A DNA stretch of 29,321 nt from a virus. Position 1 is the first letter of the stretch. The number at the start of each line of letters is the position of its first letter. The position numbers were made by a program, and so were the translations under genes. Below, piece by piece: positions 4,655 through 26,550 of the stretch. The notes below the pieces were generated by a model. It worked only from the letters and a program-made list of their open reading frames with translations, did not search any database and was not told the origin of the DNA. The DNA lies in IMG/VR virus record IMGVR_UViG_3300034105_001782, positions 1-29,321 of that record. One strand, given 5' to 3'.

Positions 4655-4997
4655 TGATTTTAAGTTTTTAGTTGGACATAAAATAGTAGAAAACCATAGT
4701 GAAAAAGGTCTTTCTGCAATTAAGTTGACAGATGCTCCTTATGAAGGTATAATTTTTAGTTATGGTAAAGTTGAATTTCCTGAAGATGCTTTAGAAGGAG
4801 AAAATTGTCCAATAAAATTTGATTATGAGGTTTACAATAATGCTGGAATAGAATATAATGTAGATGAGTTCGAAAAATATATTGGAGATTTTCTTATAGA
4901 GTTAATCGTGTACCAATTATCTAAAAATGGCATTGTATATACAGGCGGAATTGATGACGATAACACAGACTATATTGAGCAACTTGATCCACAATGA
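4647..4997 (+). CDS. 40: gp40-like protein (head vertex assembly chaperone)
   Basis: A 116-residue protein starting at GTG with GGAG six bases upstream; the start overlaps the uvsX stop by 8 bases. It lies exactly between uvsX and gp41, where T4 carries gene 40, whose product helps head vertex (gp20 portal) assembly at the membrane. The size fits (T4 gp40 is about 114 residues), and the stretch GLSAIKLTDAPYEGIIFSYG looks like the conserved core. There is no signal peptide or membrane segment. Its 3' end overlaps the chosen start of the helicase gene by 44 bases. The assignment depends mainly on position and size, with moderate sequence resemblance from memory. Confidence 0.65.
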   Translation: MSDDFKFLVGHKIVENHSEKGLSAIKLTDAPYEGIIFSYGKVEFPEDALEGENCPIKFDYEVYNNAGIEYNVDEFEKYIGDFLIELIVYQLSKNGIVYTGGIDDDNTDYIEQLDPQ

Positions 4998-5583
4998 AAC
5001 ATACTCAAGGAAAGTAATTCCATTTATTAAACTTGAGTATTTTACTGATCATTATGAAAAAGTAATTTCACAAGAAATTATTAACTTTTTTGATCAATAT
5101 AATTCAACAATAACTCTTGATATATTAGCAATTCAGATCAGTAACAGGTCTGAATTGCGTGAAAACCAACTACAGGATATTGAAAAATATATCAATGAGT
5201 TAACTTTTAAAACTGATAATGAACAATGGCTTTATGATAATACTGAAAAATTCTGTAAGAATCGAGCAGTCATTAATGCAATCATTGATGCTTATGATAT
5301 TGTAGAAGGTAAAAATAAGGATAAAACTGAAGATGCTATACCAAGTCTTTTATCAGATGCTTTGGCAGTAAGTTTTGATTCTTCTGTAGGTCATGATTAT
5401 CTCGAAGATTATCAAGAACGATATGATTTCTATCATAGAGTAGAAGAAAAGATTCCATTTGATCTTGACATCTTCAATAAGATTACAAAGGGTGGATTAT
5501 CTAAAAAGACTTTGAATATATGCATGGCAGGATGTGTGCACCCTGAAACTTTAATCAGGGTGCGGTATAGGAAATTAGTCTAA
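4954..5583 (+). CDS. 41: gp41 replicative helicase, N-terminal part fused to a 16-residue N-intein
   Basis: A DnaB-family helicase N-terminal half: 193 extein residues followed by a tiny N-intein. The start at 4954 gives MTITQTILSNLIHNETYSRKV, which lines up with the T4 gp41 N-terminus; the upstream ATG at 4927 would add nine unrelated residues. Later segments (SFDSSVGHDYLEDY, IPFDLDIFNKITKGG, LNICMAG) match gp41 up to the middle of Walker A. There the frame changes character: Cys1 at 5533 begins CVHPETLIRVRYRKLV and stops. The rest of Walker A (TGVGKS) lies more than 1.1 kb downstream, behind a C-intein. The product is inactive as a helicase until trans-splicing joins it to the second half. 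The stop overlaps the convergent HNH gene by 9 bases. Confidence 0.92.
   Translation: MTITQTILSNLIHNETYSRKVIPFIKLEYFTDHYEKVISQEIINFFDQYNSTITLDILAIQISNRSELRENQLQDIEKYINELTFKTDNEQWLYDNTEKFCKNRAVINAIIDAYDIVEGKNKDKTEDAIPSLLSDALAVSFDSSVGHDYLEDYQERYDFYHRVEEKIPFDLDIFNKITKGGLSKKTLNICMAGCVHPETLIRVRYRKLV
5533..5580 (+). other. Atypical N-intein coding segment (16 residues)
   Basis: The codons after MAG read CVHPETLIRVRYRKLV then TAA. Cys1 with CxxPETLI is a standard intein block A. Nothing else of the N-terminal half of an intein is present, so the split falls right after block A, as in the atypically split VidaL and AceL-TerL inteins, not at the usual endonuclease position about 100 residues in. Confidence 0.88.
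5538..5563. repeat. 9-bp perfect inverted repeat inside the N-intein
   Basis: GCACCCTGA (5538-5546), an 8-base spacer, then TCAGGGTGC (5555-5563). It is GC-rich against the surrounding AT-rich DNA and sits just before two convergent overlapping stop codons. No T-run follows on either strand, so it is not a standard intrinsic terminator. It may protect an mRNA 3' end or be a protein-binding site. Confidence 0.7.
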
Positions 5584-6201
5584 GGTGAATCCTAATCTAT
5601 AACCTTTGGATAAGTATTCTTCTAGAAATTCAGGTTTTATTCTAGTTCTGTGTTTGCCATTGGTTATACATTTCATTCCTATTAAAGATTTGCCACCCAT
5701 AATAGCTCTTTCTATTTGTCCTTCTTTAGTTGCCCAATATGACCAAGGATTATTTGGAGATATTATAGAAGCTTTACCACCTAAACTAGCATGATATGAC
5801 AGAAGCTTTGGATCAAATATACCTACTTGATTTAGCATTTGAGTATGTATTCCTTTTAATCGCCATTCTTGTTTTTGATCTGGAGAAAATTTATCTGAAA
5901 AATACCCTATTTTATTTTCAAAACACCATTTACCCGTAATTTGACGTTGTTCTGAGGATAACTTAGCACCAAGCATATGCATAGATCTTAAATCATTAGG
6001 GTCTTTATTTATTTTCCAAAGTAGATAATGGGCAATAATATGTTCACGTACAGTAAAATATGTTAAATTAGATTCATCATCTGAACCACCTGAATGCACT
6101 GGTGTTATATGATGTCTATGTAAACCTGATTTAGGTTTATAGAATTCTTTATTAGATTTTCTAGATTCACACAGGTTGGTATATATGTTAATAAATAACA
6201 T
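5575..6201 (-). CDS. HNH homing endonuclease between the split-intein halves
   Basis: The only convincing minus-strand gene in the window: 208 residues, with AGGAG nine bases before the ATG (6211-6215 on the minus strand). The HNH core is HRHHITPVHSGG (28-39), N45, and REHIIAHYL (53-61). The C-terminal part (WATKEGQIERAIMGGK, ITNGKHRTRIKPEFL, YLSKGYRLGF) resembles the repeated DNA-binding modules of free-standing phage HNH enzymes. It would cut alleles lacking the insert and so spread the split-intein arrangement. The second HNH protein (12397) shares the same HNH layout, including REHYIAHWLL, so the two are distant relatives. The open frame is intact. The cleavage site is not known; the uninterrupted Walker A codons are the obvious candidate. 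Confidence 0.88.
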   Translation of the reverse strand: MLFINIYTNLCESRKSNKEFYKPKSGLHRHHITPVHSGGSDDESNLTYFTVREHIIAHYLLWKINKDPNDLRSMHMLGAKLSSEQRQITGKWCFENKIGYFSDKFSPDQKQEWRLKGIHTQMLNQVGIFDPKLLSYHASLGGKASIISPNNPWSYWATKEGQIERAIMGGKSLIGMKCITNGKHRTRIKPEFLEEYLSKGYRLGFTLD

Positions 6202-6333: not shown

Positions 6334-6705
6334 ATGTGGATAAATGATGAAATAAGTATAAAAAACATAGATAAACTTTTAAAAGAGGGTTATGAAATAG
6401 AAGTTGATTCTCCTGATGGTTATGTTCCAGTAAATTTTTATGTTGACAAAGGTATGTGGGAAGAATATGTTCTTCAATTAGATAATGGAACTATTGTTAG
6501 AATTAATGAAAATCATTTATTTGAAACTAGTTTTGGTTGGGAATATGCTAAAGATCTAGTACATATGTCTGAAGTACATTATTTAACTAATAATGGTTTT
6601 GTTAAAGGAAAAGTTCATAAAACTGGCCAAATAATCCCAATCGTTGATATTAATGTAGAACATGACAATCACCGGTACTATACCAATGGAGTATCGTCAC
6701 ATAAC
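6334..6705 (+). other. C-intein coding segment (124 residues)
   Basis: Block B-like DNGTIVRINENHLF lies around residues 50-63. Block F VDINVEHDNHRYYTNGV and block G SSHN follow, with penultimate His123 and terminal Asn124. The +1 extein residue is Thr (ACA, 6706-6708), an allowed nucleophile. There is no endonuclease domain. The 16 + 124 partition adds up to a mini-intein. Confidence 0.9.
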
Positions 6706-7506
6706 ACAGGTGTAGGCAAATCTATGTTCATGTGTCATGTTGCTGCTTCCAGTCTTCTACAAAATAAGAATGTTTTGTATATTACCATGGAAATGGCTGA
6801 AGAACGTATTGCAGAACGTATAGATGCTAATCTTCTTAATATGAATATGAATGAGATGGCTACAATAGATTTGCCTACATATAATAATCGTATTAATAAA
6901 TTGATTAAGAAGACTTCCGGTAAACTTATAGTTAAACAATATCCAACTTCAACTGCCCATTCAGGTCATTTTAAGGCTTTATTAGAAGAATTGAAGATCA
7001 AACGTAACTTCAAACCTGATATGATAATTATCGATTATTTAAATATCTGTTGCTCTTCACGTATTAAAAATGGTTCAGGTGTTAATTCATACACTTATGT
7101 TAAATCGATAGCTGAAGAACTTAGAGGTCTTGCAGTTGAATATGATGTACCATTATTAAGTGCAACCCAAACAACACGAGGTGGTTTTGGTAATACAGAC
7201 GTAGAATTAACCGATACTTCAGAATCTTTTGGTTTGCCTGCTACAGCAGATATGATGTTTGCTTTAATTGCTACAGAAGAACTTGAAAACTTAAACCAAA
7301 TCATGGTTAAGCAACTTAAGAATCGGTATGCAGATCCTGGTTATTATAAACGATTTGTTATAGGAGTTGATAGATCTAGAATGAAACTATATGATGTTGA
7401 AGAATCTGCTCAAAAGGATATTTCTGAGAGTGGCCAACCGGCAACTCAGTTCTTGACAGAGAGAAATAAAAAGTCACAAATTGAAACAAAAGGTTTTACT
7501 TTCTAG
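6334..7506 (+). CDS. 41: C-intein (124 residues) fused to the C-terminal part of gp41 helicase
   Basis: Residues 1-124 are a C-intein ending in SSHN; residues 125-390 are the RecA-like motor of gp41, beginning TGVGKS, which completes the Walker A begun in the gene ending at 5583. The motor has LYITMEMAEERIAERIDANLL, Walker B MIIIDYLNIC, the SATQTTRGGF motif, and a late LKNRYADPGYYKRF segment with the arginine region, all as in T4 gp41. Joined exteins give about 459 residues against 475 in T4. Splicing should ligate ...MAG to TGVGKS..., so ATP hydrolysis and DNA unwinding depend on it. The start has a weak GTAGGTG upstream and its own promoter. This is not a pseudogene: both halves are open, conserved and carry intein ends. 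Confidence 0.93.
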   Translation: MWINDEISIKNIDKLLKEGYEIEVDSPDGYVPVNFYVDKGMWEEYVLQLDNGTIVRINENHLFETSFGWEYAKDLVHMSEVHYLTNNGFVKGKVHKTGQIIPIVDINVEHDNHRYYTNGVSSHNTGVGKSMFMCHVAASSLLQNKNVLYITMEMAEERIAERIDANLLNMNMNEMATIDLPTYNNRINKLIKKTSGKLIVKQYPTSTAHSGHFKALLEELKIKRNFKPDMIIIDYLNICCSSRIKNGSGVNSYTYVKSIAEELRGLAVEYDVPLLSATQTTRGGFGNTDVELTDTSESFGLPATADMMFALIATEELENLNQIMVKQLKNRYADPGYYKRFVIGVDRSRMKLYDVEESAQKDISESGQPATQFLTERNKKSQIETKGFTF

Positions 7507-11121: not shown

Positions 11122-12339
11122 ATGTCAAAAAAAATTAAAGTTGCTATTGCTGGTATAGGTAATTGTTGTTCTTCATTAGTTCAAGGTCTTGAATATTATA
11201 AAGATGTTGATCCTGAAAATGGAACAATTCCAGGAGTTATGGAAATGCGCATTGGAGGGTATCATCCAGCAGATATCCAAATTGTGGCAGCATTCGATGT
11301 AGATAGAAGAAAGGTTGGAAGACCCTTAGGAGAAGCAATTTTTGCTAAACCTAATTCTTCAAGAATTTTTCAACCTCATATTCCAGAAGGTCCTATTGTT
11401 CAAATGGGAAATGTTTTAGATGGTGTTTCTGATTTTATGTTAAATGGACCTGAACACTTAAGTTTCATTTTATCAAATGAAGAAACTGTAGATGTTGTAC
11501 AAGTGCTTAAAGATACTAAAGCAGATATTCTTTTAAATTATATGCCGGTTGGGTCACAATTGGCTACTGAATTTTATGCACAAACTGCGCTTGACGCAGG
11601 TATTGCATTTATGAATTGTATGCCAGTTTTTATTGCCTCAAATCCTGAATGGGAAACTAAATTTATTGATGCTGGTTTACCATTACTTGGTGATGATATG
11701 AAATCTCAGGTAGGAAGTTCTATTATTTCCCAAGCAATGCAAGAATTGTTGTTTGATAGAGGCGCCGAAATAGATTTTCATGCCCAATTAAATATGGGAT
11801 TTAATCAAGATTTTAGAAATATGGAAGTACAATCAAGACTCCAATCTAAAAAGATTTCAAAAGAAAATGTTATTAGATGTCAAAATGATTTAAGAGGAGT
11901 TCCTGTTAAGGAAGGTCAATTATATGCTGGACCATCTGCATACATTCCAAGAGCTACAGATGAAAAAGTTGCATTTTTCGATATTAGAGCAAGAGGCTTT
12001 GGCGATGCTCCAATTAAAATTGATATTAGATTAAGTGTATGCGATAGCGAAAATAGTGCCGGTGTAGTTATTGATGGTTTGCGTTATCTTAAGGTTGCTA
12101 GAGAGTTGGGTATAATTGGTTCTTTAAGAGGTCCAAGTTCTTGGACTCAAAAATCTCCACCTCAAACAATGGAATATGCGGATTCTAAACAAGAATGTGT
12201 AATGTTAGCTAAACGTGAATTAACTGAAATAACAAAAAGACAACTTTCTAAAGAAGATGCATTATCTTATATGAATGAACAAATTGGAAAGGGTTCAACC
12301 GCACATTTGCAACGATTAAAAGAATATCAATGCAAGTAA
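11122..12339 (+). CDS. ino1: Myo-inositol-1-phosphate synthase
   Basis: A 405-residue NAD-dependent enzyme of the bacterial/archaeal MIPS type, converting glucose-6-phosphate to 1D-myo-inositol 3-phosphate. The Rossmann start IAGIGNCCSSLVQG (9-22), the central NCMPVFIASNPEW, GDDMKSQVGSSI, and the late YAGPSAYIP and SENSAGVVIDGLR segments are all present; the Lys of DDMKSQ is part of the active site. Length is normal and the frame is intact, so it should be active. The gene is single-copy metabolism placed between dCMP deaminase and the base-modification genes. Two roles fit: an auxiliary metabolic gene changing host inositol or phospholipid supply, or a precursor pathway for an inositol-derived DNA base decoration. 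The SD is AGGAAAA. Confidence 0.93.
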   Translation: MSKKIKVAIAGIGNCCSSLVQGLEYYKDVDPENGTIPGVMEMRIGGYHPADIQIVAAFDVDRRKVGRPLGEAIFAKPNSSRIFQPHIPEGPIVQMGNVLDGVSDFMLNGPEHLSFILSNEETVDVVQVLKDTKADILLNYMPVGSQLATEFYAQTALDAGIAFMNCMPVFIASNPEWETKFIDAGLPLLGDDMKSQVGSSIISQAMQELLFDRGAEIDFHAQLNMGFNQDFRNMEVQSRLQSKKISKENVIRCQNDLRGVPVKEGQLYAGPSAYIPRATDEKVAFFDIRARGFGDAPIKIDIRLSVCDSENSAGVVIDGLRYLKVARELGIIGSLRGPSSWTQKSPPQTMEYADSKQECVMLAKRELTEITKRQLSKEDALSYMNEQIGKGSTAHLQRLKEYQCK

Positions 12340-15692: not shown

Positions 15693-17084
15693 ATGAAATC
15701 ATTCAAAATGCATGTAAACGAAACTCAGAATAAAAATAAATTAAATAGTTCAATAAAACATATAAATGATCATTTTAATTCTATTGTAGTTAAATATTAT
15801 AATGATACAAGAAATCCCACAGCAATACCTTCTATTACAGGTAAAATAGAAGGTGGTGTTGAAGGTATCACTAATATAATGAAAACTATATTTGGTGACC
15901 AAACCAAAGTAGAAAGTTTATCTGGACCCATTGCTAGAAGTATTTCAGGTACTTATGATTCTTATGAAGTGAGAATTTCGCCAATTAATTCATTTTATTT
16001 TAGATCTATTATTGGTGAAAAGGGTGCTTTATCTAAAAAAGACTTAACACCAGTAAAATTAAAATTAAATGGTAAAACATTAACTAAAACAAATGTAGAT
16101 AGTCTTATAGAAGAAGGATTAAAGAATAATTCAGATTTGCCTTTAGAAGTATTAGAACTATGCAGAAATTTAATTAATCTTGCTAAAAATAAAGGATTAA
16201 ATATTATTGTAACACCTAATATTAATAAATTACTTAAGACAATATCAAAAACAGATTTAAAAAAGATAGGAACTAATTATGGCGAAATTGTTTTAGCTAT
16301 TTGGTGTTTATATAATAAACCTGATGCAAAAAGCATATTTTTTCCAAAAGAAGAAAATAATCCACTTGCAGATTTCATTGTAAACTTTTCAACTTCATCT
16401 AAAATTCCACCACTTAATGTATCTGCTAAATATGAAGCGGGTGCTAATGCATCACTAAACTCAATAATTCCTCAAGATTGTAAACCTCCTGAATCAGCTA
16501 CTGCCGATGAACTTAAAGCATTTAATGCTATTATGGCAGTTGCATATGATAAAATTATTGATGGATTATTAAATGCTGAAAAGATATTAAACACACCTGA
16601 ATATGTAGCTTTACAAAAAATGATAGATGGAAATGTTACTTTAGATAGTATTTCAAAGTTAGTTGAAAACGCCTTGAAAAATGCCGAAATTAATTCTAAA
16701 GAAATTCCTTCATTAGATCAATATAATAATTTTTTATCGACATTAGAACCATTTTATAAACTAATTCCAGGTAACCAAAAAGGCAAGCCAAATATAAATT
16801 CTATGAAAAGCATTGCTGCATTAGGTACTGGTAAATATCATCATCCAATTTATTATGCATTTTCAGTTTCATTAGCTGATAAATTCAATAATGATGTCAA
16901 ATTTTCAAATGTATTAAATAAGGCAGCAAATGCAATTAAAGCAGAACAAATATATCTTGATATTACTAATGATAATATAAATATTAATATGAAACATTTT
17001 TCAGACTCAAAATTCATGTTTGCGGCTGGAGCTTATGCAATTAAAGCAGATAATGTAAGAATGAAAGTCAAACTAGTAAAGTAA
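15693..17084 (+). CDS. Unrecognised late protein with MKSFK N-terminus
   Basis: A 463-residue protein that I do not recognise. It begins MKSFKMHVNE, similar in its first five residues to the capsid-targeting-like peptides of downstream proteins but lacking the usual FL/FI before the Glu. It is lysine-, asparagine- and isoleucine-rich, with no signal peptide and no clear membrane segment. A segment GKIEGGVEGITNIMKTIFGD (50-69) is followed by mixed alpha/beta sequence. It heads the late block behind an AATAAATA box and ends 34 bases before the first nucleotidyltransferase gene. Packaging in the head is a possibility by analogy with its neighbours. No catalytic motif stands out. Confidence 0.75.
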   Translation: MKSFKMHVNETQNKNKLNSSIKHINDHFNSIVVKYYNDTRNPTAIPSITGKIEGGVEGITNIMKTIFGDQTKVESLSGPIARSISGTYDSYEVRISPINSFYFRSIIGEKGALSKKDLTPVKLKLNGKTLTKTNVDSLIEEGLKNNSDLPLEVLELCRNLINLAKNKGLNIIVTPNINKLLKTISKTDLKKIGTNYGEIVLAIWCLYNKPDAKSIFFPKEENNPLADFIVNFSTSSKIPPLNVSAKYEAGANASLNSIIPQDCKPPESATADELKAFNAIMAVAYDKIIDGLLNAEKILNTPEYVALQKMIDGNVTLDSISKLVENALKNAEINSKEIPSLDQYNNFLSTLEPFYKLIPGNQKGKPNINSMKSIAALGTGKYHHPIYYAFSVSLADKFNNDVKFSNVLNKAANAIKAEQIYLDITNDNININMKHFSDSKFMFAAGAYAIKADNVRMKVKLVK

Positions 17085-17090
17085 TAAATA
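17083..17090 (+). promoter_or_regulatory. Late-promoter-like box
   Basis: AATAAATA overlapping the preceding TAA, 28 bases before the ATG at 17119; one mismatch to TATAAATA. It has the same form as the box at 15667. Confidence 0.35.
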
Positions 17091-17118
17091 ACAATATCTT
17101 TATTTTTAGGAAACATTA

Positions 17119-18084
17119 ATGAAATCGTTTGTAGAATTTATAACTGAAGGCGGAAATGTTTTTAAGGGAAAGACTGCTTCTATCAAATTGGAACACATTG
17201 CTCCTACACTTGAAGCATATTTCAAAGAACTTAAACAAATCTTTCCAAAGAAAGCCGCAATATTTAATCTAAATCATTTCAAACCACTTGGTTCAGTAGG
17301 TAAAAAACCGATGTCGGGGGATATAGATCTTGGTATTGATTCAAAGAGTTTACTTGATCATACTATGTCAGATAAATCTATGTCTGATTGGAATATTGAT
17401 CCTAAAGCAGTCCATATAGAATTTGCTAAGTTAGAAAAGAGAGCAAAGTCTGCTTCTCCTGAAATGCTATTGATGAAAGCATTTCTTAAAGAACTAACAT
17501 TGTATATTAATTCACATGCTCCTTCATTATATTGTGATGAAAAGAAAGTTACAAATGGTAACATCTTTGGGCTGTTTCCACAAATTAATGATAAAGGATA
17601 TGAAGTTGGTATTGGTGTTCAAATTGACTGGATGATTGGTGATCTACAATGGTTGACATTTAGTTATCATTCTGCTGCGTATCCTGCAAATTCTAATGTG
17701 AAAGGTTTGCATAGAACCCAATTGATGCTGTCTGCATTTCAAGTAGCAAACTATTCTTTTAATCATGTAACAGGGGTTAAAGATAAGGAAACTGGCGTTA
17801 TTATTGCTCATAATCCAGAAGATGCTTTAGGCGTATTGAGTAAGAAGTTAGGCGTAAAGATAACAAGAACTGATGCTGAAGATTATTACAAACTACATAA
17901 ATTGCTTAAGACCAAAATGAAACCGAAAGATTATTCTAGTATGGTTGATATTTACTTGAAGATACTTGACTCAACAAGAGCCGACGTGCCTGATGATCTT
18001 CAAGCAGATTGGAAAAAACGTAAAACTAAACTGGCCTTAACTGGAAAGTTCTTGCCTGATAACTCAGCACTGAAAGGATTATAA
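17119..18084 (+). CDS. Nucleotidyltransferase with capsid-targeting-like N-terminus
   Basis: A 321-residue protein. It opens MKSFVEFITE|GG, close to the T4 capsid-targeting peptide MKTYQEFIAE, including an I-x-E|G site expected for the gp21-type prohead protease. Behind it is a pol-beta-like nucleotidyltransferase core: LGSVGKKPMSGDIDLGID (57-74) holds the GS motif and the D68xD70 metal pair, and VQIDWM (167-172) the third acid D170. Such enzymes transfer NMP to RNA ends, proteins or small molecules. If packaged, it would enter the host with the DNA and act at once. The next gene encodes a second protein of the same fold. The SD is AGGAAA. The family within the superfamily is not recognised. 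Confidence 0.75.
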   Translation: MKSFVEFITEGGNVFKGKTASIKLEHIAPTLEAYFKELKQIFPKKAAIFNLNHFKPLGSVGKKPMSGDIDLGIDSKSLLDHTMSDKSMSDWNIDPKAVHIEFAKLEKRAKSASPEMLLMKAFLKELTLYINSHAPSLYCDEKKVTNGNIFGLFPQINDKGYEVGIGVQIDWMIGDLQWLTFSYHSAAYPANSNVKGLHRTQLMLSAFQVANYSFNHVTGVKDKETGVIIAHNPEDALGVLSKKLGVKITRTDAEDYYKLHKLLKTKMKPKDYSSMVDIYLKILDSTRADVPDDLQADWKKRKTKLALTGKFLPDNSALKGL

Positions 18085-18085
18085 G

Positions 18086-18994
18086 ATGTCGGGAAGTACT
18101 GGTGCAGATCGTATTCAAAGTAGAGAACACTTCAAGAAGTTTCTCGTTTCATATGAAAATCTAATAAAAAAGTTTCCAGGATTTGTATCTATTGAACCAT
18201 CTGGTTCTTATAACTCTAATCCAAATAAACAAGACTTTGGCGATATAGATTTAGTAACACATATCAAATCTGATAAAGATAAGACAATTCTTAAAAAGGA
18301 ACTTGCGAAGTACCTTGAGAGTTTACCTGATTCAGTTATCGTTCCATTTAAATCTGAAAGATATAAAGGTAAGAAGTTTCTTAATACTGGTGAGATAGTA
18401 ACAATTAGATATCATGATGCAGAGTTAAATTATTCAGTGCAGATTGATAATATTATTGCACTTGATAAGACAGAGGCTGATTTTAAGAAGAAGTTCCTTG
18501 ATTTTGCTGCTGAGAAACAAGGATTGATATTAGGATTAGTTAAAGTTGCTACTATTGAACAACCGTTAAAAACTTTGTTTACTAAGATGGGTATCAATGT
18601 ACCAACCAAGTTACCTAAGGATGAGGAATACGAATTCAATCTTTCTAGTATTGAATTACAGTTGCGCCATGTTATTTATGAACCAGATTCATTTAAGCAG
18701 AAAAGTCGGTCAGTTGTTTGGAAGAGTAGGAACTTTGATGATATCAAAAAGATTCTAAACAAGTATAACCTTGATCTAGATTTTGATTCCTTATTGAAAC
18801 AAGTTAAGAAGAACATTAAGAATCCAAGAAGTAAGAACAGAATCAAAGGTGTATTCAGTTCAATGATTACAGTAAAGTCTGGTGAGATTGGAACTCCTAA
18901 AGGTGCAGATAAAGTCAATGCACTTCATAAGATTAATGCTGTATTAGGGGAATCGCTATTGTCGTTCAAGGGCTTCTTAAATGAAATCTTTTAA
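18086..18994 (+). CDS. Second nucleotidyltransferase-fold protein
   Basis: A 302-residue pol-beta-like protein: EPSGSYNS (37-44), DFGDIDLV (50-57) with metal ligands D53 and D55, and YSVQIDNII (116-124) with D121. All three acids are present, so catalysis is plausible. It shares the motif order with the preceding protein but little other identity. It has no capsid-targeting N-terminus (MSGSTGADRIQS). Its C-terminus reads LLSFKGFLNEIF, which resembles the SFKxFLxE core of the targeting peptides, so it may be recruited from the other end, or via the preceding protein. AAGGA gives a good SD; the 3' end overlaps the ADP-ribosyltransferase gene by 14 bases. Confidence 0.75.
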   Translation: MSGSTGADRIQSREHFKKFLVSYENLIKKFPGFVSIEPSGSYNSNPNKQDFGDIDLVTHIKSDKDKTILKKELAKYLESLPDSVIVPFKSERYKGKKFLNTGEIVTIRYHDAELNYSVQIDNIIALDKTEADFKKKFLDFAAEKQGLILGLVKVATIEQPLKTLFTKMGINVPTKLPKDEEYEFNLSSIELQLRHVIYEPDSFKQKSRSVVWKSRNFDDIKKILNKYNLDLDFDSLLKQVKKNIKNPRSKNRIKGVFSSMITVKSGEIGTPKGADKVNALHKINAVLGESLLSFKGFLNEIF

Positions 18995-19694
18995 AGATTT
19001 TCTATTAGAAGCTGTTGACAATAAGAAATTAGGTCAAATTATTTCACTAGTTAAAAAGATTAATAAAACATTACCCTCTGATTCTAAATATGCTGTGAAT
19101 TCTTGGTCACAAGGTACTCTATCTTCTGGTGGTAATGCATTAGAAAATTCTAGTACACTAAAACAATTAGAAAAATCATTTTTACCAGTCAAAGAGTTGA
19201 TGAAAACTTTGTTGGGTTCACATATTGAATTATACAGAGGCGAGGTCGAAAGATCAGAAGAAAATATAAAACATAGTAGTGGGAGACAAATATACTCTTG
19301 GACGGCAAGTCCTAAGATTGCATCATTACACGCAAACCGCTCTGCATCATATCCAGACTATACTGATGATGAACTAAAAAAGACATTAAATCAATTTAAG
19401 ACAAAGGGTGTTGCTAAATTAGGTAATTATCAATTCATCAAAACAAAAGATGACCCAAAGTATTTTAATCTTTATTATAAAAGAGATTATCAAACAGGAT
19501 ACTATACTAATGAAATTGAAGATGTTTTGAAGCAACTACAGAAAGACAATAAGACTAGTAATAGTGAACTAAAAAAGAATCAAGGAAAGGTATATAATAA
19601 GTTAATACCCATAGATGATATCGTTTGGATAGTAGATGCATTGAATTTTAAAGAATTGGAATTCATAGTTAAAGGTGGGGACAGATTAAAATGA
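18981..19694 (+). CDS. ADP-ribosyltransferase-like protein with capsid-targeting-like N-terminus
   Basis: A 237-residue protein starting MKSFKDFLLE|A, a capsid-targeting-like peptide with an L-x-E|A protease site. The body fits the R-S-E class of mono-ADP-ribosyltransferases: ELYRGE (83-88) with Arg86, YSWTASPKIASLHA (105-118) for the STS-like strand, and FKELEFIV (223-230) with the ExE pair E225/E227, the arrangement found in arginine-modifying enzymes. T4 packages the ADP-ribosyltransferase Alt and injects it to modify host RNA polymerase, so the same life style is a reasonable inference. The target is unknown. It overlaps both neighbours (14 bases upstream, ATGA downstream). Moderate sequence divergence leaves an inactive ART-like structural protein possible. 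Confidence 0.68.
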   Translation: MKSFKDFLLEAVDNKKLGQIISLVKKINKTLPSDSKYAVNSWSQGTLSSGGNALENSSTLKQLEKSFLPVKELMKTLLGSHIELYRGEVERSEENIKHSSGRQIYSWTASPKIASLHANRSASYPDYTDDELKKTLNQFKTKGVAKLGNYQFIKTKDDPKYFNLYYKRDYQTGYYTNEIEDVLKQLQKDNKTSNSELKKNQGKVYNKLIPIDDIVWIVDALNFKELEFIVKGGDRLK

Positions 19695-20611
19695 GTGAAT
19701 TCGAAGATTTCCTAAAACTTGTTGCTGAAGGTAAAAAGGATTATAAAGAAAATGATCCTGTTGGCAAAAAGTTAGAAGAAGTCAAACTGAATATCAAGTC
19801 TGATTTAGGTTCTTTATTTGGCCATTTATCTGAAGCAAAGATAAATGATCCAATTAATAAAAAGATAGAGACTGTAAAAGAGAATGTTAAATCTGATTTA
19901 GGTTCTTTATTTGCTCAATTGTCTGAGATTGCTACTAAGGTAGAACCTTTAGAAGGTAGATTTGATGAAATCATTATTGAAGTTGCCGAGCAAATAGAAG
20001 AAGTTGCTCAAATAATAGAAGAAGTACCAGTTCCTGAAATTAAACCGGCATCTCAGCAGTATTCTCCGGCAGAAATAGAAAAAATACATACTGGTAAATC
20101 ATTCCAACAACCTGATCCAGATTTAGTTACTCCTCAGATGGATGACATCCGTAAGAAACTAAAGTTCATGGAACAGGCAATTGGTAAAATTGCTGCTTTA
20201 GGTCCTGGATCTGGTGAAGTTAATCTAAGATGGTTAGATGATGTTTATAGACCATCTATTATGGATGGTAGATACCTTAGATATAATGATACTTTAAAGA
20301 AGTTTGAATTTGCTGAAGTAAATCCGCATGATATTGTTTACACCACGACTCTAGTAACTAATAATACATATACCGTTAGTAGTGCTGATTATTATATTGG
20401 TGTAAATTATGCAGGTCCAGTTACAATAACATTACCAACTGAATTACTTAGTTCAGGTAGAATGATTATTATAAAAGACGAGTCTGGTGCAGCAGAAACA
20501 AACCCTATTACTGTCCTAGGCACTGTTGATAACGATGCTGGTGGATTTATAATTCAAATTAACAATGGTGCCATTCAATTAATTTACAGAAGTGGCTGGA
20601 GAATCGTATGA
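19691..20611 (+). CDS. Virion structural protein with coiled-coil repeats
   Basis: A 306-residue protein. The N-terminus MSEFEDFLKLVAE|G may be a diverged targeting peptide. Residues 21-82 carry two near-identical 31-residue units beginning NDP(V/I)xKK and containing SDLGSLF. Then come an acidic EV/EE-rich coil (about 92-115), a linker, LGPGSGEVNLRWLDDV (190-205) and a beta-rich C-terminal domain ending SGWRIV. The GSGEVNLRWLDD...YLRYN region is a form I associate with fibre or whisker-like virion proteins of marine T4-like phages. It probably is a trimeric attachment or head-associated fibre. It overlaps both neighbours by 4 bases. Confidence 0.65.
   Translation: MSEFEDFLKLVAEGKKDYKENDPVGKKLEEVKLNIKSDLGSLFGHLSEAKINDPINKKIETVKENVKSDLGSLFAQLSEIATKVEPLEGRFDEIIIEVAEQIEEVAQIIEEVPVPEIKPASQQYSPAEIEKIHTGKSFQQPDPDLVTPQMDDIRKKLKFMEQAIGKIAALGPGSGEVNLRWLDDVYRPSIMDGRYLRYNDTLKKFEFAEVNPHDIVYTTTLVTNNTYTVSSADYYIGVNYAGPVTITLPTELLSSGRMIIIKDESGAAETNPITVLGTVDNDAGGFIIQINNGAIQLIYRSGWRIV
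19751..19936 (+). repeat. Two tandem 93-bp coding repeats
   Basis: Units 19751-19843 and 19844-19936 encode 31-residue copies starting NDPVGKK and NDPINKK; the stretch for SDLGSLF is nearly identical in DNA (TCTGATTTAGGTTCTTTATT). The pattern implies a recent in-frame duplication. Confidence 0.85.
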
Positions 20612-22263
20612 CATATTTGTTTAAACCTGATGTACCATTTGATGGTGAGATTAAAAACGATACTGGTAATCCAATTCCTGTATCTAAAGACACCTCAGTA
20701 AACAGCACCACCAATCGTATTTTTGTAGATACTGGTTTAACTATTCCAGCTGCATTTGATGGTGAGATTAAAAACGATGCCGGTAATCCAATACCAATCA
20801 CAGGCACAGTTAGTATTGGCGCAGACGGCACAGTTAGTTTATCGGCAACCACATTATCAGCATTGGAAAATATAAGTGTTACTGGCACAGTTGAATTAGG
20901 TGCTAGCACATTAGCAGCATTGGAAAACACTACAGTCGCCATTAGTGGAACACCCACAGTTAACATTGGCACTATACCAGAAGTAGAGATTAAAAACGAT
21001 GCTGGTAACCCACTTGCAGTATCTAAGAATACATCAACCAATTCTGATACAAATCCAATCTTTGTTAAGGGAACTTCTGACTCAAGCTTCTTTGCTCCAA
21101 CGCAATCAGATGCTTTTGGTAGACTGCGTGTAAGTAATCCATATACTTTATTTGATGGTGGTGTGCGCTTTTCGGACAATACATTTAAGTGGGATCAAGT
21201 TGATACTGGTGCAGCTACGTCAACTTTTCAACCAAATGAAAGTTCTATACTGATGGCAACCACTGGTGCAGGTTCAGCAATTCGTCAAAGCAAACAAGTA
21301 TTTTCCTATCAGCCTGGAAAAAGTTTATTGAGTATGTTGACTTTTGTTATGAATACTCCTATTGCTGGAGTTACTCAACGTGCTGGATATTTTGGAGCGC
21401 AGAATGGTGTTTACTTTGAAGTGGCGGGAACCACAAAAAATCTTGTCATTAGAAAATATACTTCTGGTTCAGTAGATGACACTACAGAAAAATTCCCCCA
21501 AAGTTTGTGGAATGGTGATAAATTAGACGGGACTGGATCTAGCGGAATAACATTAGATGTTTCTAAAGCACAGATTTTTTGGTGTGATATTGAATGGTTA
21601 GGTGTAGGTTCAGTTCGTTGCGGATTTGTTATTGATGGCCAGTTTATTGTTTGTCATACTTTCCATCATGCTAATATAGCAAACAAAGTTTATATGACTA
21701 CAGCTACGTTACCTTTACGATATGAAATTATTAGTACTGGACCAGCAGCTTCAATGAGAGCGATCTGTTCTACGGTAATATCAGAGGGTGGTTATATGAA
21801 TCGTAGTGAAACCCGTGCCATAGGAACTGCATTAACAGGTAAAAATCTTAGCACTACTGTATACAGACCTTTAGTATGTTTAAGATTGGCGTCAACTGCT
21901 ATAGACTCTATTGTAGTTCCAACCGCATTTGATGTATTTGGATTACAACTAGCAGCTTTTGCATATGCGGTTATTCTTAATCCTACACTAACTGGTGCTA
22001 GTTGGACTTCTGCTGGTACAGATAGCACAGTAGAATATGACATTTCTGCAACTGCTCTTTCTGGTGGAAAGGTAATAACACAAGGTGTATTTGTAGGATC
22101 TAATAAGGGTGGATCTGCTCAGGTTACTTCCAATGACATAGACTTTAGTCAACAGTTAGGTAGAACAATAGCAGGCGTATCAGACATATGGTGCTTAGCA
22201 GCAATAGCTACTACAACTAATGATGATGCGGTTGGTATAGTGAACTGGCAAGAGCATAACTAA
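20608..22263 (+). CDS. Large virion structural protein (fibre or spike-like)
   Basis: A 551-residue protein with no enzyme motif. The first 135 residues are low-complexity beta-type sequence with three copies of (D/V)xEIKND(T/A)GNP and TVxxSALEN/TLAALEN repeats rich in T, V and G, typical of fibrous spike stalks. From about residue 155 a globular region follows (SDAFGRLRVSNPYTLFD, NESSILMATTGAGSAIRQSK, QVFSYQPGKSLLSMLTF), which I associate with a widespread structural protein of marine myoviruses. The end (SDIWCLAAIATTTNDDAVGIV) is hydrophobic beta sequence. It is probably late-expressed with the preceding gene (ATGA overlap). The exact virion location is not known. Confidence 0.7.
   Translation: MTYLFKPDVPFDGEIKNDTGNPIPVSKDTSVNSTTNRIFVDTGLTIPAAFDGEIKNDAGNPIPITGTVSIGADGTVSLSATTLSALENISVTGTVELGASTLAALENTTVAISGTPTVNIGTIPEVEIKNDAGNPLAVSKNTSTNSDTNPIFVKGTSDSSFFAPTQSDAFGRLRVSNPYTLFDGGVRFSDNTFKWDQVDTGAATSTFQPNESSILMATTGAGSAIRQSKQVFSYQPGKSLLSMLTFVMNTPIAGVTQRAGYFGAQNGVYFEVAGTTKNLVIRKYTSGSVDDTTEKFPQSLWNGDKLDGTGSSGITLDVSKAQIFWCDIEWLGVGSVRCGFVIDGQFIVCHTFHHANIANKVYMTTATLPLRYEIISTGPAASMRAICSTVISEGGYMNRSETRAIGTALTGKNLSTTVYRPLVCLRLASTAIDSIVVPTAFDVFGLQLAAFAYAVILNPTLTGASWTSAGTDSTVEYDISATALSGGKVITQGVFVGSNKGGSAQVTSNDIDFSQQLGRTIAGVSDIWCLAAIATTTNDDAVGIVNWQEHN
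20638..21012 (+). repeat. Degenerate coding repeats of the spike stalk
   Basis: A GAGATTAAAAACGAT core recurs at about 20647, 20764 and 20986, encoding EIKND(T/A)GNP. Shorter GCATTGGAAAA repeats (SALEN/AALEN) lie between. Spacing is irregular, so it is a protein motif family and not a tandem DNA array. Confidence 0.75.
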
Positions 22264-22287
22264 AATTATATTCTAGTATTTAAAAAG

Positions 22288-22295
22288 TATAAATA
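22288..22295 (+). promoter_or_regulatory. T4-type late promoter
   Basis: A perfect TATAAATA in the short intergenic AT stretch, 30 bases before the ATG at 22326. The T4 family recognises this box with the gp55 sigma factor and clamp activation. Confidence 0.7.
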
Positions 22296-22325
22296 ATATA
22301 CAGTTTATTTTATAGATGGAACCAA

Positions 22326-24545
22326 ATGAAACAGTATAGACAATTCCTAAAGGAAATGCCTTCCAAAACAATTGTATTTGCTTTTGGCAGATTTTCTCCT
22401 CCTACCACGGGTCATGGGCTACTTATTAAAGTAGTTAAAAAGTTTGCATCTAGTAATAAAGCAGATTATGTAATATATGCTTCTAGAACTCAAGATAAAA
22501 AGAAAAACCCATTATCGGTGGATAAAAAGATTCATTATTTGAATCTAATGTTTCCACACACCAATTTCAAACCTGCAACTGATACAGAGCGCACACCTAT
22601 AGAGGTTGCGAAAGCATTAAACTCTAAATATAAAAATCTTGTCATGATTGCAGGTTCTGATCGGGTTGGTGCTTTTGAAAAATTACTTAACCAATACAAT
22701 GGTATAGAATATAATTATGATTCTATTCAAGTAATTTCAGCCGGTGAAAGAGATCCAGATGCTGATGATGCTTCTGGTATGTCTGGTACTAAGATGAGAT
22801 CGGCAGCTTCTGAAGGTGATTACCAAATCTTTAAAAAGGGTTTACCCTCTACATTACGTGATATTGATGGTAAACTATTAATGAATGATGTTAGACAAGG
22901 AATGGGTCTTGATATCATTAAAGAACAATTTAAACTAAATGTTGATGAACTTAGAGAAAGATATTATAATAAAGAAATATTCAACATTGGTGATATTGTA
23001 GAATCAAATAACGAACCATTTGAGATATTAGACAGAGGTAGTAATTATCTTGTTGTTGTAAATTCAATTGGTGAAACTAGTAAAAAATGGATACAGGACG
23101 TAGTAATGTCAGAACAAACTTTATTTGAAGATATTCAACCTGGAGATGTACCTTCTGAAATTACATTCAAAGGTTATACAACTAAAAATCTTCATCATTC
23201 AGAAGATGCTATTAGAGCATTTGTACAAACTATAAAAATATCCGGTGATCACGATCCAATATCTGTTTTAAATGCATTGAAAGCAACAGATATCTACATG
23301 GGTATTAATGATAGGCATTTAGAACAAGGAAAAGTTCCGGATGAACAAGAATTGAATCAATGGGAAGATGCACATATAAAAGCAAAAATAGCTTTGGAAA
23401 GAAATGGAGATTTCCTACACCATTTAGATTATTGGCATATGCATGGAACTGAAATAGAACTTATGATAAATCAATTTAGAGCATCAACGGCAAATGGTAT
23501 GACTGAAGAATTAACAGACAAAACTCTTAAAACTAATGATAAACTTAAAGTTGCTAGAATGATTGCAACTATTTTAGGATTTGATGATGCTGAGAAATCA
23601 AGTAATGCTGAAACATTGGTAAATAATGCTTTACGTAAAACTAAAACTTTAAATAAAGATTCATTAAAAATTGTTTCCAAAATGTTAAAACTTGCAGATG
23701 AAGTTGGTATTAACTATGATAAGAAATCAATTAAAAATATCTCAAAAAGTAATTTAACTGAAGAACAATTTCAGTTAGCTACTGAAAGGGCAGAACGTTA
23801 TGGAAGACGCTTTCCAAACCCTATTGATAATTTTTGGATTAATGAAGTTAAAATTAATAAAACAATTAAATCTTTACCAAAGGATGATGCTGAAAAGATT
23901 GAAAATCTTGCAGCAACTGGACATGCAACTTTAAGTACTAAACGGCATGGAGTTGATCAATCTGAACTTACACATGTAGGAGCAAATTTAACTCCTGGTC
24001 CTAGAGGTACAGATACTATTGATAGAATGAAAGTCAGGTATATGAAGGAAGAAGAATTAGAATTAGATGAAGATTTTGATCTCACTGAAGAAGAAATTGA
24101 TGAAATAATAGATTCGCTTTCAGAAGAAGATATATTTGAGGCATATGATGATGATGAATTTATTATTATTGATGAAGAAGGCAATGAAGTAGAAATTCAA
24201 GTTCCTGTAAGTGAAGAAGCTCTTATGGAAGTTCTTTCTAAAATGGAAAGAATGAAAGCAAGACTTAGAATGGCAAAATATACACCTAAGTTAACTGCAA
24301 AACGTAAAATTGCTATGCGGACTCATTCAGATTCTAAAAAAATAAATAAAAGAGCTAGAAAATTAGCTGTTGGTCTTATCAAGAAAAAGTTGTTAAAAGG
24401 TAGAGATCCAGCTTCATTATCTACATCTGAAAGAGAAAGAATTGAACGTGTAATTGAGAAAAGAAAACCAATTATAAATCGTTTAGCTATGAAACTTACT
24501 TCAAAAGTTCGTAAAACAGAAAAAGATAGATTATCACATCACTAG
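22326..24545 (+). CDS. Cytidylyltransferase-like domain fused to a packaged-protein-type basic tail
   Basis: A 739-residue fusion. Residues 1-10, MKQYRQFLKE, are capsid-targeting-like. Residues 14-190 form a nucleotidyltransferase of the cytidylyl/NMN-adenylyl class: FGRFSPPTTGHGLL (20-33) carries the T/HxGH motif, and GMSGTKMRS (151-159) replaces the ISSTxxR loop. A beta domain follows (about 215-265), then helical modules. A very acidic tract (about 575-630, EEELELDEDFDLTEEEIDEI) is followed by a strongly basic C-terminus (from about 640, with RKLAVGLIKKKLLKGRD), resembling DNA-binding tails of other phage head proteins. The acidic ELxxDE sites could be cut by the prohead protease, releasing pieces. 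If NAD-related, it would pair with the ADP-ribosyltransferase, but its substrate is unknown. A TATAAATA late promoter lies upstream. Confidence 0.78.
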   Translation: MKQYRQFLKEMPSKTIVFAFGRFSPPTTGHGLLIKVVKKFASSNKADYVIYASRTQDKKKNPLSVDKKIHYLNLMFPHTNFKPATDTERTPIEVAKALNSKYKNLVMIAGSDRVGAFEKLLNQYNGIEYNYDSIQVISAGERDPDADDASGMSGTKMRSAASEGDYQIFKKGLPSTLRDIDGKLLMNDVRQGMGLDIIKEQFKLNVDELRERYYNKEIFNIGDIVESNNEPFEILDRGSNYLVVVNSIGETSKKWIQDVVMSEQTLFEDIQPGDVPSEITFKGYTTKNLHHSEDAIRAFVQTIKISGDHDPISVLNALKATDIYMGINDRHLEQGKVPDEQELNQWEDAHIKAKIALERNGDFLHHLDYWHMHGTEIELMINQFRASTANGMTEELTDKTLKTNDKLKVARMIATILGFDDAEKSSNAETLVNNALRKTKTLNKDSLKIVSKMLKLADEVGINYDKKSIKNISKSNLTEEQFQLATERAERYGRRFPNPIDNFWINEVKINKTIKSLPKDDAEKIENLAATGHATLSTKRHGVDQSELTHVGANLTPGPRGTDTIDRMKVRYMKEEELELDEDFDLTEEEIDEIIDSLSEEDIFEAYDDDEFIIIDEEGNEVEIQVPVSEEALMEVLSKMERMKARLRMAKYTPKLTAKRKIAMRTHSDSKKINKRARKLAVGLIKKKLLKGRDPASLSTSERERIERVIEKRKPIINRLAMKLTSKVRKTEKDRLSHH

Positions 24546-24554
24546 GAAATAAAA

Positions 24555-24992
24555 ATGAATGAATTATCCGCGGCATTGAAAATTGCCTTAGCAAACACTT
24601 TTGTAATGTATTTTAAGAGTCATTCATATCATTGGAATATTGAAGGACCTAACTTTAATGATTACCATGGTTATTTTGGTGGATTATATGAAGAATTACA
24701 TAGTGCAGTAGATCCTATAGCAGAACATATTCGTGCTATTGATCAATACGCACCTGTAGGTCTTTCTGATCTTTATGATGCTAAAACGGTTTCAGATGAC
24801 TCTTCAATAGTAGTATTAACAAAACAAATGTTTTTAAATCTTATTGAGGCTAATGATTTAGTAATCGAAAGTTTAAATAGAGCATTTGATCTTGCAACAT
24901 ACGCAAAAAAACAAGGTTTATGTAACTTCTTAGCAGATCGTTTAGATGTTCATGCTGCACATGCTTGGCAATTAAAATCATTAAGTAAGTAA
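24555..24992 (+). CDS. Dps/ferritin-like protein
   Basis: A 145-residue four-helix protein. YHWNIEGPNFNDYHGYFGGLYEEL (25-48) and VDPIAEHIRAID (52-63) are the Dps signature. The ferroxidase ligands of Listeria Dps map to H26, H38, D53 and E57 here, but the Asp at the fifth position is Gly42, so iron oxidation may be weakened. Dps shells bind and shield DNA and store iron. In this late block, it may be packaged or may protect DNA during lysis. There is no targeting peptide (MNELSAALK). It is followed after one base by a 57-residue gene with such a peptide, so the two may act together. The SD is AGGAAA. Confidence 0.85.
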   Translation: MNELSAALKIALANTFVMYFKSHSYHWNIEGPNFNDYHGYFGGLYEELHSAVDPIAEHIRAIDQYAPVGLSDLYDAKTVSDDSSIVVLTKQMFLNLIEANDLVIESLNRAFDLATYAKKQGLCNFLADRLDVHAAHAWQLKSLSK

Positions 24993-24993
24993 T

Positions 24994-25167
24994 ATGAAGA
25001 CTTATAAAGAGTTGCTTGAAGATATTGCAACATCTGATATTAACGTTAAAAAATGGGTAGATAATAACGGGATTACTCGTACTAGAAAAGTTCATCCACG
25101 TATGGTTGATTTTAAAAATAGCAAATCTGGCGGTGAACCCAGTCAGAATGGCGAACCAAAAAGGTAA
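24994..25167 (+). CDS. 57-residue protein with T4-like capsid-targeting peptide
   Basis: A small gene between the Dps-like gene and the 458-residue gene, one base after the Dps stop. The first ten residues, MKTYKELLED, are the closest match in the window to the T4 internal-protein signal MKTYQEFIAE. The remaining residues are basic in the middle (KKW, RTRKVHPR) and polar at the end (SGGEPSQNGEPKR), with no fold recognised. It looks like a small internal head protein. Standard length cut-offs would miss it. No SD is obvious, so translation may be coupled to Dps (TAATATG). Confidence 0.75.
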   Translation: MKTYKELLEDIATSDINVKKWVDNNGITRTRKVHPRMVDFKNSKSGGEPSQNGEPKR

Positions 25168-25173
25168 TAATAG

Positions 25174-26550
25174 ATGAAAAGTTATAAAGAATTAAATGAG
25201 TCATTAGCAGATGAATTGATGAAAATGAAAGGTGCAAAACCTCGTGGTTCAGTAACTGATCAAAAAGCTGCAAGAGACGCTGTAATTGCTAAAAGAAAAG
25301 AAACTAATCCTAATCCGCCGGCGCTTGGAACTTCAAGTGACAAGTATAAGTTAGGAGGTTATGATAAAAAGTCTAATCGTTCTTATAGTGAAGAAGTTGA
25401 ATTAGAAGAAGGTAAAATTCCAGTAAACCATGCGCACGATGCAGTTGGTTCAGTATTAGGGCAATCTGCAGCAGTTAAATTTACATCTAATCTTAAAGCA
25501 GGAACTACTAAACACACTACTTGGAAAGATATCAATTCCGCTTTAGTAAAGCAAGGTGAACAAACTCATCATATTGCTAAGATTGCAGCTAAATTGAAAC
25601 CTGCTCAATACAATGAAGAAATTGAAGAGTTGGATGAAGTTTCTATGTCAACATTAGATAGTTATCGCAAGAAAGCGTTTGCAGAACCAGGATTCAACAG
25701 ACAAGCTGGTAGAAAACTTGCTTATGATAAATCAAGTTCACACGGTGATTCTAAGGTTAAGTCTTCTGAAGAAATTGATGTAGCAAAATCTCAAATCAAA
25801 GATTTAATTAAACCTGAACATCATTCAAAGTATCCTATATCTAAAATTACCAGTATGACCCATGGACGTAAAATTTATAGAGACGCAAGTGCTGCTGGTC
25901 ATCTTAAAGAAGAAGTTGAATTGGATGAAAAAGAATTAACAGATACAGACGTAAAACAAAAAGAAAAAGTCGTAAAGGGTATGAAGAAAAATCTTCAATC
26001 TTTCAAAGATAAGTATGGTGAAAGAGCAAAAGGTGTTATGCATGCAACTGCTACCAATATTGCAAAAAAGATGCCCGATGTTAAAGAAGAAGTTGAAGAG
26101 TTAGAAGAAGGCAACTTCGAAAAGAATATGGATATCATAAAATCAGGTAAATTACCACCACACATTCAAGCAATACTTGATAAACGTGGAGCAAAAGGTA
26201 ATGATGCTATTATGGCAAAAGGTAGAGTAGAAAAATTAAAAAGCATGAAAGAAATGCTTGATGAAGCAAGAGCAAAGAAAGAACCTATGGAAGTTTACCA
26301 TACTGGTTACTCTGCTGCACTTCAACACGCTGAAAAACATCTAAACAAACAAGGTTATGAAATTCATCCTGATGATTGGCAAGAACATATTAGTCATGGT
26401 CCATCTAAACCATCTGATGGCAAAACTGTTAAACTGCATGTACCATTACATAAAGATGGTGTAAAATCTAAAAAAGTAGCACATATTCAAGTTTATAACC
26501 GAGGTAATACAATACCAAAGAATAATGAACTGAATATGTATGTAAACTAA
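25174..26550 (+). CDS. Internal head polyprotein-like protein with repeated protease-site motifs
   Basis: A 458-residue protein starting MKSYKELNE|S, a capsid-targeting-like peptide. Four acidic spacers, EEVELEE|G (73-80), EEIEELDE|V (148-156), KEEVELDE|K (246-253) and EEVEELEE|G (306-313), separate basic, lysine-rich modules of about 60-145 residues. The (L/I)-x-E ends resemble sites of the T4 gp21 prohead protease, so the precursor may be cut into several DNA-associated peptides inside the head. One module starts with STLDSYRKKA; the last ends with a compact YHTGYSAALQHAEKHL...HIQVYNRG domain. No catalytic motif is seen. No long intergenic region precedes it, so it is probably transcribed with the Dps unit. 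Confidence 0.72.
   Translation: MKSYKELNESLADELMKMKGAKPRGSVTDQKAARDAVIAKRKETNPNPPALGTSSDKYKLGGYDKKSNRSYSEEVELEEGKIPVNHAHDAVGSVLGQSAAVKFTSNLKAGTTKHTTWKDINSALVKQGEQTHHIAKIAAKLKPAQYNEEIEELDEVSMSTLDSYRKKAFAEPGFNRQAGRKLAYDKSSSHGDSKVKSSEEIDVAKSQIKDLIKPEHHSKYPISKITSMTHGRKIYRDASAAGHLKEEVELDEKELTDTDVKQKEKVVKGMKKNLQSFKDKYGERAKGVMHATATNIAKKMPDVKEEVEELEEGNFEKNMDIIKSGKLPPHIQAILDKRGAKGNDAIMAKGRVEKLKSMKEMLDEARAKKEPMEVYHTGYSAALQHAEKHLNKQGYEIHPDDWQEHISHGPSKPSDGKTVKLHVPLHKDGVKSKKVAHIQVYNRGNTIPKNNELNMYVN

Follow-up and report, generated by a model that had tools for sequence, protein, structure and literature searches.

The closest known precedent for the peptides discussed here is the capsid-targeting sequence (CTS) of the phage T4 internal proteins IPI-III, a 10-residue N-terminal propeptide with aromatic residues at positions 4 and 7, a hydrophobic residue at position 8 and a cut site at E10, which is carried on varied cargo and in which mutation has shown residues 4 and 7 to matter for targeting and residues 8 and 10 for processing (Mullaney and Black 1996, as reviewed in PMC9026906). 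T4 also injects the ADP-ribosyltransferase Alt, an enzyme cargo with a short cut propeptide (ITE-6; C-terminal LTE-619, PMC5694885), and in T4 the gp21 prohead protease acts on head and core proteins (PMC9026906, PMC5694885). Related delivery strategies are represented by the polyvalent proteins, which are injected multi-domain phage proteins with ART, kinase and NTase domains (Iyer et al. 2017, PMC5512222), and by the ejection proteins of SPN3US and phiKZ, which are packaged in the head and processed by a gp21-related protease but have much longer propeptides and different cleavage motifs (PMC5694885).

Here we analyse a 29,321-nucleotide fragment of a freshwater T4-like phage (IMG/VR record IMGVR_UViG_3300034105_001782; hereafter the window), in which several unrelated predicted proteins begin with a T4-like CTS. 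In comparison with IPI-III, the cargo is mostly enzymes and polyproteins, and sister lineages use another form of the tag (MRAxEFIxE); in comparison with Alt, the one putative ADP-ribosyltransferase is supported by motifs alone and carries a tag of the internal-protein type; and in comparison with the polyvalent proteins, most cargos here are separate ORFs with their own tag, or modules joined by acidic LxE linkers. The mechanism itself, that is, the T4 CTS together with gp21, is known, and what is new is its unexpectedly broad and lineage-adapted form.

The tagged cluster and its predicted cargo

The DNA polymerase of the window is best matched by cyanophages, at 48% identity. The ORFs before 15693 are mostly replication and nucleotide genes, whereas those after it include the virion structural families phrog_1645 and phrog_613. 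The tagged region contains the following features, where a slash marks a predicted cut point:

15693..17084 (+), a 463-aa protein of unknown function, without a PHROG match, with the degenerate tag MKSFKMHVNE
17119..17148 (+), the capsid-targeting tag MKSFVEFITE, with a predicted cut after E10 (ITE/GG)
17149..18084 (+), the first cargo, a Pol-beta superfamily nucleotidyltransferase (NTase1)
18086..18994 (+), a second nucleotidyltransferase (NTase2; GSYN...GDIDL), with no N-terminal tag but with a tag-like C-terminus, LLSFKGFLNEIF
18981..19694 (+), the tag MKSFKDFLLE and a putative ADP-ribosyltransferase (LYRG R86, SWT 106-108, E227)
22326..24545 (+), the tag MKQYRQFLKE, an NMNAT/cytidylyltransferase domain and a long acidic C-terminal region
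24994..25167 (+), a 57-residue peptide with the tag MKTYKELLED
25174..26550 (+), the tag MKSYKELNE/S and a polyprotein of modules, most of which are preceded by an acidic linker EEVE(E)L[DE]E

A preliminary description, made from the sequence alone, had proposed that a family of late proteins at 17119-26550 carries T4-like capsid-targeting peptides on a set of injected effectors, and our analysis confirms the observation and supports the interpretation, albeit with several corrections. Six ORFs in 15693-26550 begin with a peptide that matches the T4 CTS at the positions known to matter (aromatic at 4, mostly aromatic or Leu at 7, and an (L/I)xE cut site), and these peptides are the first codons of long ORFs. 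The strict motif M..[FY]..[FY][LIVM].E matches 3 of 33 N-termini (17119, 18981 and 22326) against 1 of 8746 internal positions (P=8e-9), while a relaxed form, which was adjusted after seeing the examples, matches 6 (adding 15693, 24994 and 25174; P=1e-13). All six lie among the 14 genes from 15693 on and none among the 19 before (P about 0.003 by our own arithmetic). The predicted sites are ITE, LLE, LKE, LLE and LNE, with VNE in 15693; this weak tag is nevertheless genuine, as 89%-identical orthologues begin MKSFKMYITE and MNSFKEYIMET, and the cluster should start at 15693. In contrast, MSEFEDFLKL (19691), which had been listed as a weaker member, is rejected, since it lacks E10 and the protein resembles tail fibres. 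The designation of the genes as late rests on gene context only, as TATAAATA, considered as a late promoter, is not above chance (6 seen, 7.7 expected). A Dps/ferritin-like protein without a tag (24555-24992) also lies inside the cluster.

In NTase1 the GS...GDID and VQIDW motifs are conserved, the AF2 model has a pLDDT of 91, and Foldseek hits Pol beta/mu (prob 1.00, best E 1.5e-5, TM about 0.4). The protein at 22326 matches PHROG 3041/395 (E to 6e-66) and Pfam CTP_transf_like, although it has PPTTGH in place of the PPHxGH of the S-CREM2 and S-SZBM1 copies. The identification of 18981 as an ADP-ribosyltransferase is only motif-based: the motif residues are conserved in three homologues, and a Rhizobium phage homologue at 30% identity also starts with a tag (MISFKSHLNE), but the structural model was of low confidence (pLDDT 61), gave no fold match and was discarded. 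Sequence searches of PDB with the ADP-ribosyltransferase, NTase and NMNAT gave no relevant hit. The tag of the 57-residue peptide is conserved in homologues with 67-100% identity. In relatives of the polyprotein at 25174 the modules are reshuffled while the L[DE]E-ending linker stays, so that internal cutting is likely but unproven.

Elsewhere in the window, the DnaB-like (gp41) helicase is broken in two (4927-5583 and 6334-7506), with the first half ending GCVHPETLIRVRYRKLV and the second beginning with about 125 residues that end VSSHN before TGVGKS; this looks like an atypically split intein with a very short N-part, and an HNH-like ORF lies between on the other strand (5575-6201, -). The C-termini at 2940, 14631 and 15668, where the DNA polymerase ends ANLEDFFG and two neighbouring proteins end ATLDSFF and STLEDFF, are possibly sliding-clamp-binding tails. 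A 405-aa protein at 11122-12339, for which PHROG 33138 is of unknown function, may resemble inositol-phosphate synthase, but no close bacterial homologue was found.

Evolution of the tag and presence of tagged proteins in virions of related phages

The homologues of NTase1 provide a natural experiment. In 38 homologues from IMG/VR the N-terminus varies, but conservation starts at GGN, residue 11. All 29 copies with an N-terminal extension have [LIV]xE immediately before GGN, whether the extension is MKSFVEFITE, MITFKEFITE, MKTFAQYLAE, MRIRELLSE, MLLSELFHHKKKLIE or a longer upstream segment ending in VME, LSE or LNE, whereas the other nine have M directly before GGN, which would give the same mature end by Met removal. 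The extension is therefore a removable unit with a fixed cut point, although many of the 38 are close relatives and the number of independent events is smaller (25 distinct last-14 sequences). In the AF2 model residues 1-8 of the tag are disordered; this separability from the folded cargo has been shown for 17119 only. Furthermore, the same small cargo, a KIRKVNKDWYQIDVE protein, is found behind two different tags, MISFKEFITE and MKSFSDFLTE.

We next compared the motif with published cyanophage virion proteomes. For S-CREM2, with a list of 52 virion proteins out of 219 ORFs (PMC10665884), the strict motif is expected 0.03 times in the 219 N-termini and is seen 3 times, in each case on a virion protein; with F allowed at residue 8, it picks gp6 (SAM hydrolase), gp14 (APH-like kinase), gp136 and gp154 (cytidylyltransferase), all of which are in the virion. 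The near-matches gp13 and gp15 are also virion proteins, whereas gp175 (55 aa, looser match) is not, and the virion protein gp12, annotated as Cas9, has a tag-like FASFMAE/A at residues 19-25. In S-SCSM1 the tagged NMNAT gp91 (MKSFLQFLKE) is labelled a virion protein and the tagged gp30 is not. S-SZBM1 alone does not replicate the strict enrichment (0 of 2, P=1), as its two small tagged proteins, 191 and 192, were not detected, although its NMNAT, with the register-shifted tag MRFRQFIIE, is a virion protein. When the strict tags are pooled, 5 of 8 were detected against 1.5 expected (P=0.008), comprising NMNATs, the SAM hydrolase, the APH-like kinase and one unknown, while the three undetected proteins (S-SZBM1 191 and 192, and S-SCSM1 gp30) are small (105-165 aa). 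A cytidylyltransferase was also found in S-SM1 virions (PMC3037559). The passages of these papers that we consulted do not mention a tag, and a literature search, which did not extend to subscription papers, turned up no paper that links capsid targeting with cyanophages.

The tag is also broadly distributed. As a positive control, the same DNA pattern applied to T4 finds three sites, two of which are MKTYQEFIAE at 65.7 and 66.4 kb (internal proteins, by sequence), whereas the reversed pattern finds 0; a strict match is also carried by the 54-aa T4 protein of gene 61.1 (18966-19130, -), which reads MKTFKEFIKEDMVAGDS.... In IMG/VR, 75 of 81 matches head an ORF of at least 35 aa, in 24 unrelated clusters, and Pfam hits among them include zeta-toxin-like kinase, methyltransferase, DnaJ, phage lysozyme, HiPIP, DUF6267 and GH19. 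One 47-kb relative has six strict tags within 7 kb. In sister phages the NTase1-NTase2-NMNAT cassette is kept, sometimes with NTase2 and NMNAT fused through a linker with an ending similar to the tag-like C-terminus of NTase2, and neighbouring unrelated small proteins share the other start, MRAxEFIxE. This second pattern was written after seeing examples, so that its count of 29 distinct N-terminal against 0 of 3045 internal positions is descriptive; a lineage-specific start shared by unrelated proteins is what a signal recognised in trans should look like.

Capsid proteins point to a matching protease site. Five tag-carrying phages (S-CREM2, S-SCSM1, S-SZBM1 and two others, here G019 and G014) have MCP propeptides ending LLTE/A, FLAE/A, ILTE/A, FLTE/S and IITE/S, with the position inferred from T4 gp23, which is the same consensus as the tag ends, and these phages encode a gp21-type protease. 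However, no gp21 or gp23 gene lies on this fragment or its nearest relatives, so the cognate protease is not seen, and the presence of gp21 does not separate tagged from untagged NTase phages, as those with an untagged NTase also encode it.

Proposed mechanism and competing interpretations

The interpretation that we favour, and hold with considerable confidence, is that the N-terminal 9-10 residues are capsid-targeting propeptides of the T4 type. In this scheme, the aromatic helix face (positions 4 and 7) docks each precursor on the prohead scaffold core during head assembly, the gp21-type prohead protease then cuts after (L/I)xE and frees the mature enzyme inside the head, and DNA is packaged around it; at infection the enzymes leave with the DNA and act in the new host before phage genes are expressed. 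The polyprotein at 25174 is probably cut at its internal L[DE]E linkers by the same protease into small internal peptides. The cargo would comprise a Pol-beta-type nucleotidyltransferase, an NMNAT, a putative ADP-ribosyltransferase, a 57-aa peptide, a polyprotein and one unknown. The tag enrichment, the evolution of the cut point and the virion presence of tagged proteins in related phages underpin this scheme, whereas location in the head rather than the tail, cleavage, injection and the role of each enzyme in the host are inferred and have not been shown for this phage. Sitting less comfortably with it are the three undetected cyanophage proteins, the D at residue 10 of 24994, which in T4 IPIII allows targeting but blocks processing (PMC9026906), although LLE precedes it, and the fact that some tagged cargos are lysozyme- or chitinase-like, which would be odd for head contents.

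Alternative interpretations appear less likely. As the published MS lists are whole-virion and do not separate head from tail, as the neighbouring genes include virion structural families, and as 24994 has E9-D10, the peptide could direct proteins to the tail or neck, or tether them to the scaffold without cleavage, so that they would be structural or assembly factors rather than injected enzymes; we consider this unlikely, because [LIV]xE is conserved in 29/29 extended copies exactly at the mature boundary, matching the capsid-protein maturation site of tag-carrying phages, and because in T4 this protease acts on head and core proteins. It is also conceivable that the cargo is packaged and cut but works inside the head, in DNA condensation or head size, without being delivered, and judging from size and composition the 57-aa peptide and the polyprotein modules could be DNA-binding fillers. 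This, too, seems doubtful, since the catalytic motifs are conserved in NTase1 and an NMNAT domain is present, neither of which has an obvious role in a finished head, and since T4 Alt and the internal proteins are ejected (PMC9026906). Least likely of all is a coincidence of favoured early codons (AAA after ATG) and amphipathic N-terminal helices: the peptide is only 10 residues long and MK starts are probably common, but the data in hand already speak against this reading, given the excess of strict matches in S-CREM2, the absence of tags among the 19 upstream ORFs and the swapping of the tag on constant cargo.

A broader proposition, which we regard as only slightly more likely than not, is that across aquatic T4-like phages the capsid-targeting peptide is a general delivery address, by which dozens of unrelated enzymes and peptides, as separate tagged ORFs or as LxE-jointed polyproteins, are loaded into the head, with each phage lineage using its own tag form matched to its scaffold and protease, so that tag scanning would read out the injected effector set of a phage from sequence alone. 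Aquatic T4-like phages carry large sets of unknown genes, and if a 10-residue tag marks what is carried in the head, the injected effector set can be predicted from sequence, and puzzling virion enzymes of cyanophages (NMNAT, SAM hydrolase, kinase) gain one explanation. Cargo that makes or uses NAD and nucleotides suggests, although this is inference, early control of host metabolism or defence.
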